Below are positions 22,789-24,353 of a stretch of 64,000 nucleotides of DNA, in pieces. The stretch comes from Leptolyngbya sp. CCY15150. GTDB taxonomy: Bacteria > Cyanobacteriota > Cyanobacteriia > RECH01. Where the stretch lies: positions 1 to 64,000 of the forward strand of contig NZ_JACSWB010000277.1 of assembly GCF_016888135.1 (NCBI RefSeq), given 5' to 3'. How positions within the stretch are numbered: position 1 is the stretch's first letter; each line of letters opens with the position of its first letter. Made by a program: the position numbers and the translations under genes. The notes under the pieces were generated by a model. The model was not told the DNA's origin. It saw only the letters and a program-made list of their open reading frames with translations, and did no database searches.

Positions 22789-22813
22789 AAAAAAGGTTGG
22801 CTGTTAGACCAAC
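22789..22813 (-). terminator. Rho-independent terminator of aroF
   Basis: On the minus strand GTTGG (22813-22809) and CCAAC (22800-22796) form a stem that includes the aroF stop codon in its loop, followed by CTTTTTT. Compact stop-codon-overlapping terminator. Confidence 0.75.
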
Positions 22814-23731: not shown

Positions 23732-23764
23732 ACAAAAAACCCGGAACCTAAGGGGCTCCGGGTT
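23732..23764 (-). terminator. Proximal attenuator terminator in the aroF leader
   Basis: On the minus strand AACCCGGA (23764-23757) and TCCGGGTT (23745-23738) form a perfect 8-bp stem with an 11-base loop, directly followed by a U6 run (23739-23734). It lies about 60 bases before the aroF start. Its 5' arm can pair alternatively with CTCCGGGT at the end of leader ORF 2. Confidence 0.85.
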
Positions 23765-23796
23765 TGTGAATAAGCGCATGGCTAAGTCACCCGGAG
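23756..23796 (-). promoter_or_regulatory. Candidate antiterminator of the proximal aroF attenuator
   Basis: CTCCGGGT (minus strand, 23796-23789), which spans the last codons and stop of leader ORF 2, is fully complementary over 8 bases to ACCCGGAG (23763-23756). The latter includes seven of the eight bases of the terminator 5' arm, so the two structures exclude each other. Confidence 0.7.
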
Positions 23797-23849
23797 GAGG
23801 ATCGGGGCCAAAAAAAGTAGGTGCTAAAAAAGGATGGGAAGGAGAGCAT
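23787..23849 (-). CDS. Aromatic-rich leader peptide 2 (attenuation peptide)
   Basis: The 20-codon ORF reads MLSFPSFFSTYFFWPRSSSG, with five Phe, one Tyr and one Trp, all within codons 4-14. Seven of 20 codons are aromatic, far above chance. The ORF ends just where the antiterminator arm lies, so a ribosome finishing the peptide would cover that arm, and one stalled at the aromatic codons would leave it free. No strong Shine-Dalgarno is visible, which is common in cyanobacterial genes. Composition, position and pairing all agree with a leader peptide, but translation is inferred. Confidence 0.7.
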   Translation of the reverse strand: MLSFPSFFSTYFFWPRSSSG

Positions 23850-23882
23850 GGGATGAGCGGTGGGTAAGGATGGATAGAAAAC

Positions 23883-23911
23883 AAAAAACCGCAGGCGTTG
23901 CGCTTGCGGTT
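23883..23911 (-). terminator. Distal attenuator terminator in the aroF leader
   Basis: On the minus strand AACCGCA (23911-23905) pairs with TGCGGTT (23893-23887), with an inner GCG/CGC extension after one mismatch and a three-base loop, then U6 (23888-23883). It is about 210 bases before aroF. Its first four stem bases also belong to the antiterminator partner of leader ORF 1. Confidence 0.82.
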
Positions 23912-23955
23912 CACTTCGAGGTTCCATGAAAAGATGGACTCACTCCAAGTGAACC
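23908..23955 (-). promoter_or_regulatory. Candidate antiterminator of the distal aroF attenuator
   Basis: GGTTCACTT (minus strand, 23955-23947; codons 14-17 of leader ORF 1) is fully complementary over 9 bases to AAGTGAACC (23916-23908). That second arm runs into the terminator 5' arm, sharing four bases. A small CCAT/ATGG hairpin lies between the two arms. Confidence 0.7.
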
Positions 23956-23996
23956 TTGATAAACCAACCATAAAATCGAGCGGCGGGACGTGCCAT
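23940..23996 (-). CDS. Aromatic leader peptide 1 (attenuation peptide)
   Basis: The 18-codon ORF reads MARPAARFYGWFIKVHLE, with Phe8-Tyr9-Gly10-Trp11-Phe12 clustered in the middle. Codons for all three aromatic amino acids occur within five positions, immediately before codons 14-17, which form the antiterminator arm. The ORF stops 29 bases before the terminator. A ribosome stalled on codons 8-11 would leave the arm free; a terminating ribosome would mask it. No strong ribosome binding site is seen. An overlapping frame (ATG 23971) also runs through here but reads across both terminators and is less plausible. Confidence 0.7.
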   Translation of the reverse strand: MARPAARFYGWFIKVHLE

Positions 23997-24353
23997 AACG
24001 TTCAATACTTGGGTGAAGCTGAAAAATCTATATGCCTAGAAGGTAACTGATCTGGGCTGAAAACGTCAACCTCAACGTTTGAGTCCTACAAGTCTCAAGA
24101 TGAAACGTTACGAGCGGCCAAGCAACACATTTTGTTCCGATAGGGGCTAAGCTGAGTGCAGCCTTGGTCTAGCGGTTGGTTGGGGAGATGGAGGTCACAT
24201 GATCTGTGATTTTCGCTACCATCATTCTGGCGGACGATCCCATAGGCAAAGGCTCCATTTTTCAGTACAACAGCTAAGGGCCGATCCCGTTGATCACCGG
24301 ATTTTGCGGGGGCGATCGCCTCTGCGTCTATGACTGCACCCTATTGTTAACTC
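23997..24353. other. Divergent promoter spacer between aroF and the ABC exporter operon
   Basis: No gene is seen. The aroF promoter must lie here; on the minus strand CATATAGAT near 24025-24033 could supply a -10 box, but a matching -35 is not clear. HIP1 occurs at 24312. Confidence 0.35.

Follow-up and report, generated by a model that had tools for sequence, protein, structure and literature searches.

The gene aroF of Leptolyngbya sp. CCY15150, which encodes a DAHP synthase, is preceded in the window (the whole stretch of 64,000 nucleotides that was analysed, positions 1 to 64,000 of contig NZ_JACSWB010000277.1) by two short open reading frames (ORFs) with aromatic codons, each of which is followed by hairpins. 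This raises the question of whether a single biosynthetic gene may be guarded by two attenuators in series and, if so, of what the pair would sense. In E. coli, the DAHP synthase genes are under repression by TyrR and TrpR.

For the cyanobacteria, a paper from 2016 reported no reliable data on the attenuation mechanism (PMC4833913), and another, from 2010, describes leader-peptide systems as known only in the Proteobacteria and Actinobacteria before its own case from the Firmicutes (PMC2965389). The open-access full-text literature, to which the search was confined, yielded no report of a cyanobacterial aromatic attenuator. The leader also has no Rfam family and produced no Rfam match at the gathering threshold, the T-box included. 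A T-box riboswitch was rejected, as its core gave no match to the Rfam model at that threshold, and the weak matches below the threshold (anti-hemB, RybB) are unrelated and were taken as terminator-like noise.

Architecture of the aroF leader

The leader occupies about 24033-23674 of the minus strand and is composed of two complete leader-peptide attenuators in series (Table 1), as the initial annotation had proposed, with every element on that strand and at, or within 1-2 bases of, the position first given to it. The predicted terminator ends are 23882 and 23733, where 23883 and 23734 had been named as approximate values.

Table 1. Features of the aroF transcription unit in the window
Feature	Position	Strand	Remarks
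Promoter-like site, TTGACG-18-TACCTT	24040-24069	minus	5' of ORF1; predicted leader start near 24033
Leader ORF1, predicted peptide MARPAARFYGWFIKVHLE-stop	23940-23996	minus	Family consensus YFYFWFxxVHxx-stop
Antiterminator 1, GGTTCACTT...AAGTGAACC	23908-23955	minus	-22.5 kcal/mol; ORF1 stop inside 5' half
Terminator 1, AACCGCA...TGCGGTTTTTTG	23882-23911	minus	-13.0 kcal/mol
Leader ORF2, predicted peptide MLSFPSFFSTYFFWPRSSSG-stop	23787-23849	minus	Family consensus WFYGFYFWPRxSSG-stop
Antiterminator 2, CTCCGGGT...ACCCGGAG	23756-23796	minus	-15.4 kcal/mol; 5' arm abuts and overlaps ORF2 stop
Terminator 2, AAACCCGGAGCCCCTTAGGTTCCGGGTTTTTTG	23733-23765	minus	-19.9 kcal/mol; also picked up by terminator scan
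aroF, type Ibeta 3-deoxy-7-phosphoheptulonate synthase, 289 aa	22804-23673	minus	NCBIfam NF006421, 7.9e-120
Terminator-like hairpin at aroF 3' end	22789-22813	minus	Fits a monocistronic unit

The first hairpin of each module has the stop codon of the ORF within its 5' arm or directly against it, and shares its 3' arm with the terminator, which is followed by a U-run. The antiterminator and terminator of each module overlap (in AACC in module 1 and in ACCCGGAG in module 2) and are therefore mutually exclusive.

Of 75 loci, 73 have the motif TTGAC upstream of ORF1 and one has it between the modules; no locus has it between module 2 and aroF. The full promoter-like pairs have the same distribution. 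The placement of aroF behind both modules, which the initial annotation had assumed, agrees with a promoter-like site that lies only upstream of ORF1, with none between or after the modules; one transcript should therefore meet both gates.

Both ORFs are short and enriched in the codons of the end products, with all three aromatic residues present in peptide 1 in 97%, and in peptide 2 in 100%, of 77-78 loci, at a mean F/Y/W content of 2.8/2.0/1.0 and 3.3/2.0/1.8, respectively. It had been suggested that the two modules sense different amino acids, peptide 2 being Phe-rich, and this suggestion finds no support in the comparison: the proportions are similar in both peptides, and the Phe-richness of peptide 2 is a peculiarity of this one sequence, in which peptide 1 is reduced to F-Y-G-W-F (F2 Y1 W1) and peptide 2 holds more Phe. 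The serial gating of one common signal is the likeliest purpose of the pair, judging from the peptides, and multiplicative gating by the two modules is plausible.

Conservation and distribution

The relatives comprised the best 80 in the genome collection, together with the loci from a search of the window's own aroF family, and the 80 best belong to the Leptolyngbyaceae, Oculatellaceae, Microcoleaceae, Nostocaceae, and other families. Both modules were found in 76 of the 78 loci that were readable, i.e., that had enough upstream sequence, and the two exceptions have module 2 alone (L027) or a replaced module 1 (L078).

In L078, foreign sequence (L078:1-300) stands in the place of module 1 and of the beginning of ORF2, with antiterminator 2 and terminator 2 remaining before aroF, which makes this locus a natural leader mutant; the end of the foreign sequence may be of the IS200/IS605 type. 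Another locus (L100, in genome G336) has an insertion with an inverted repeat, TTGGCTGAGCGGAGTCGAAGCC...CCTTCGACTCCGCTCAGGGGA, in the 5' part of the ORF2 region.

Covariance models of both modules were run on 340 cyanobacterial genomes of the class, and the aroF protein was searched for in the same set. The model of module 1 matched 129 genomes and that of module 2 matched 101, with a maximum of one match each per genome (the genome of Leptolyngbya sp. CCY15150 itself has a single module-1 match). Wherever a short aroF was detected, every module match lay upstream of it, and no module match was seen in this survey upstream of the long DAHP synthase.

In the first pass, the 129 genomes with a short aroF were divided into 94 with both matches upstream, 31 with module 1 only, three with module 2 only, and one with neither, and all 35 exceptions were then read individually. 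The many module-1-only genomes that these counts implied were rejected, given that 25 of the 31 do carry a module 2, which has diverged beyond the reach of the model and in many cases has a rebuilt antiterminator (CCGGGTCAGG/CCTGACCCGG); in one family, this pair replaces antiterminator 2. In G056 and G155, two of the three apparent module-2-only genomes, module 1 is present in diverged form; in the third (G326), module 1 is partly visible at a cut contig end. The final tally for the 129 genomes is 121-122 with the tandem, six with module 1 only (the five genomes of family f10 and G314), and one with module 2 only (G229).

Five more genomes have module matches with no short aroF in the protein list. 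In two of them (G260 and G127), the matches are near a contig end, and in G108 the match precedes a short-type aroF start that is absent from the listed protein matches. Module 1 of G115 (contig C48, L122) runs straight into a broken aroF fragment, the leader having outlived the gene, and in G299 (contig C109, L123) the short aroF is gone, and both modules persist in decayed form ahead of an unrelated open frame. Two short aroF matches (G128:C1:3292643-3293473 and G308:C281:4746-5570) contain one internal stop each, TGA and TAA, respectively, which may be either sequencing errors or a sign that these genes, behind their tandem leader, have recently become pseudogenes.

A maximum-likelihood tree of 48 aroF proteins, in which the root is the drawing midpoint and many deep forks are unresolved, groups the f10 genomes (module 1 only) with the tandem genome G161 (96/93), and nests G229 (module 2 only) in a tandem group (99/97). 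Given these placements, the tandem is most simply read as ancestral to the clade, with later losses. The tandem leader is probably the ancestral state of this aroF clade.

Covariation, coding constraint, and chance

Base-pair covariation is far above that of the slid controls in three of the four helices. In antiterminator 1, 95.1% of the cells are paired (50 sequences), with four pairs changed on both sides, amounting to 25 cells, and at most 51.5% are paired in the slid controls. For antiterminator 2, the pairing is 96.6%, with 16 cells changed on both sides (58 sequences), and for terminator 2 it is 98.0%, with 26 such cells. Terminator 1 is 100% paired and nearly invariant (50 sequences), and therefore provides little covariation. 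Each module has in this way an intrinsic terminator between its ORF and the structural gene. In the diverged G056, terminator 1 is re-paired as GGACCCAA..TTGGGTC.

The aromatic codons show mainly synonymous change, in the coding frame only: the pN/pS of the aromatic core, in counts uncorrected for relatedness, is 0.37 for peptide 1 and 0.26 for peptide 2 in this frame, and about 2.5 and 0.6, respectively, in the other frames. Gaps in the coding parts of ORF1 and ORF2 span three bases, and this coding constraint, in both the in-frame pN/pS and the 3-nt indels, supports translation of the leader ORFs. F, Y, and W interchange by position, and the aromatic run as a whole is kept. In Tildeniella nuda (L052), the aromatic run of peptide 2 is lengthened (WFYSVYFWFGFYFWFG), as if the control run had been duplicated.

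When the real leader was scanned with a detector of the full arrangement, two modules were found and no more; among 1,500 shuffles of the leader that preserve its dinucleotides, at least one module arose in three and two modules in none. The folding z-scores of the single structures are low in significance (-1.5 and -1.8 for the two modules), because each module switches between two structures rather than holding one stable fold, and single-structure folding was dropped as the wrong test for a switch. Given the conservation, the covariation, and the genome-wide specificity, a chance origin of the arrangement is untenable.

Ribosome position and the predicted switch

The ribosome was placed codon by codon, and only the RNA downstream of it was folded, with 12 nt from the first A-site base counted as covered; the probabilities are medians, taken before the terminator arm is complete. 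Antiterminator 1 forms with a median probability of 1.0 when the A site is at codons -12 and -10, 0.88 at -8, and about 0.6 at -7, falling to about 0.05 at codon -6 and to 0 at -4 and at the stop. Antiterminator 2 has a probability of at least 0.97 with the A site on codon -6 or any earlier one (before emergence of the arm); at codon -5 this is 0.55, and by codon -4, as at the stop, it has dropped to 0. Codon -7 is the last of the aromatic run in both modules, so that the switch point coincides with the end of each run. In this folding model, a stall on any control codon would free the antiterminator, the last codon of module 1 being borderline, and arrival at the stop codon would close it. 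An exclusive antiterminator, blocked with the ribosome at the stop and free on a stall, is thus indicated by the overlap of the arms, by the covariation, and by the folding at successive ribosome positions.

When no ribosome is present, terminator 1 of the window has a probability of 0.36 and terminator 2 one of 0.99, the medians over the relatives being 0.67 and 0.98, respectively. The computed defaults differ, with antiterminator 1 outweighing terminator 1, and the completed terminator 2 outweighing antiterminator 2. Given that terminator 2 (-19.9 kcal/mol) is more stable than antiterminator 2 (-15.4 kcal/mol), the latter must form first and persist; the switch is masked in the equilibrium probability of module 2 at full length, so that the folding was redone with a growing 3' end.

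The enzyme behind the leader

DAHP synthase forms that have no N-terminal regulatory domain are not known to be feedback-inhibited. The product of aroF does lack this domain, as had been described: its alignment with PRK08673, a profile of 338 residues, covers only positions 67-336. Its closest solved structures are 1ZCO, 4C1K, 4GRS, and 3PG8 (262 aa in 1ZCO and 4C1K, and 272 aa in 3PG8), and the longer form, 1RZM/3PG9, matches only from residue 80. The genome has one copy of the window-type (Ibeta) enzyme and, elsewhere, another DAHP synthase, which is of the AroFGH type (Ialpha, 355 aa, contig C217:93145-94029, L141); the search for a type II DAHP synthase in this genome found none.

The compensation for weak allostery that had been proposed fits these data, because the leader occurs only with the short form of the enzyme. 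This correlation within one clade suggests that the leader would supply the transcriptional feedback missing from the domain-less enzyme.

Discussion

The reading best suited to the comparative sequences and the folding model, to which a probability of roughly 0.85 may be assigned, is that of a doubled classical ribosome-mediated attenuation, in which both gates would sense all three aromatic aminoacyl-tRNAs. RNA polymerase would start upstream of ORF1 and carry one transcript through both modules, in each of which a ribosome would translate the short peptide, towards whose end the Phe/Tyr/Trp codons are clustered. A shortage of even one of the three charged tRNAs would stall the ribosome within this run of codons, and the antiterminator would fold, blocking the overlapping terminator. 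With an ample supply of all three, the ribosome would go on to the stop and cover the 5' arm of the antiterminator, the terminator would form, and the RNA polymerase would leave. The transcription of aroF would require the passage of both gates and, as both would sense the same set of amino acids, the pair would most likely function as one AND gate, with a low leak and a steeper response. Feedback at the level of transcription would then replace what the domain-less enzyme lacks. In this scheme, the anatomy, the covariation, the coding constraint, the distribution, and the computed geometry come directly from the analysis, and we infer the stalling, the termination in vivo, the multiplication in series, and the link to the missing allostery. 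The odds are about even for the scheme as a whole, i.e., that doubled ribosome-mediated attenuation in filamentous cyanobacteria is ancestral to the aroF lineage and forms a two-stage AND gate for the three aromatic aminoacyl-tRNAs, replacing allosteric feedback.

Tentatively, the two modules may instead differ in their jobs. Module 1, being strong, would be open by default and closed by a ribosome at the stop, and module 2 would be closed by default and opened by a stalled ribosome only if its antiterminator forms first, so that together they would cover both an untranslated leader and an excess of amino acids. The energies do run in opposite directions (antiterminator 1, -22.5 vs. terminator 1, -13.0 kcal/mol; antiterminator 2, -15.4 vs. 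terminator 2, -19.9 kcal/mol), as do the terminator probabilities in the window with no ribosome (0.36 vs. 0.99), but equilibrium folding ignores the speed of transcription and protein factors, the ribosome geometry is nearly equal in the two modules, and the same residues would be sensed in both. A division by amino acid, which the composition of the two peptides in this one sequence (F2 Y1 W1 in peptide 1, more Phe in peptide 2) might invite, is unlikely in view of the presence of F, Y, and W, in similar proportions, in both peptides of 97-100% of the 77-78 loci.

It is quite unlikely that only one module is the active sensor, with the other being either a remnant or a simple terminator that is retained as an additional brake. 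While some lineages do live with one module (f10 and G314 with module 1, G229 and L027 with module 2), constraint across the clade is seen in the peptides, antiterminators, and stop positions of both modules, and the logic of module 2 is kept even where its sequence has been replaced. Nascent-peptide arrest of the TnaC kind, in which free aromatic amino acids would be sensed instead of charged tRNA through the codons, appears very unlikely. The conserved C-terminal residues of the peptides (VHR/E and PRxSSG), which might speak for it together with the fixed distance of each aromatic run from the stop, are explained by the antiterminator arm encoded there, and the interchange of F, Y, and W, with the gain or loss of whole aromatic codons, is not expected of an arrest sequence.

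The doubled attenuation proposed here resembles the trpL, pheL, hisL, and ilvL leaders of the Enterobacteria in having a short ORF rich in end-product codons, with the position of the ribosome choosing between an antiterminator and an intrinsic terminator. It differs from them in its two full modules in series, the joint sensing of three aromatics, its DAHP synthase target, and its cyanobacterial host, and the model works without a separate 1:2 protector hairpin. The mgtCBR leader of Salmonella is also similar, in that it combines two short ORFs that are translated (as is predicted for the aroF ORFs) with attenuator structures, although its ORFs differ in their signal (ATP for mgtM, charged tRNA-Pro for mgtP) and have an additive effect (PMC3641672), whereas the aroF modules would read one common codon set before a biosynthetic gene. 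The supposed rarity of tandem attenuators holds for bacteria according to the literature consulted, where mgtCBR is called a singular example, but not within the aroF clade, in which the tandem is the rule.

The tandem (double) T-boxes of the Firmicutes likewise place two sensors of tRNA charge in series before an amino-acid gene (PMC9413887), but they bind the tRNA directly, without translation. In some Gammaproteobacteria, the rimP leader has two serial terminators, one with a potential antiterminator, with no amino-acid leader peptide described for it in the accessible text of the source (PMC2965389), in contrast with the aroF leader.

Taken as comparative evidence, the aroF leader argues strongly for a cyanobacterial coupling of transcription and translation that would be tight enough for attenuation. 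If true, the leader would provide a well-supported example of leader-peptide attenuation for the phylum, and one of serial attenuators for the same signal that have been kept by selection. As a natural case of two gates for one signal, it would make the value of serial gating, in terms of leak, steepness, and noise, open to measurement, with the one-gate lineages as natural controls and culturable genera that carry the leader, such as Nostoc, Calothrix, and Oculatella, at hand. For engineering, the leader would likely represent a transcriptional brake on aromatic production, which would not be removed by deregulation at the level of the enzyme.
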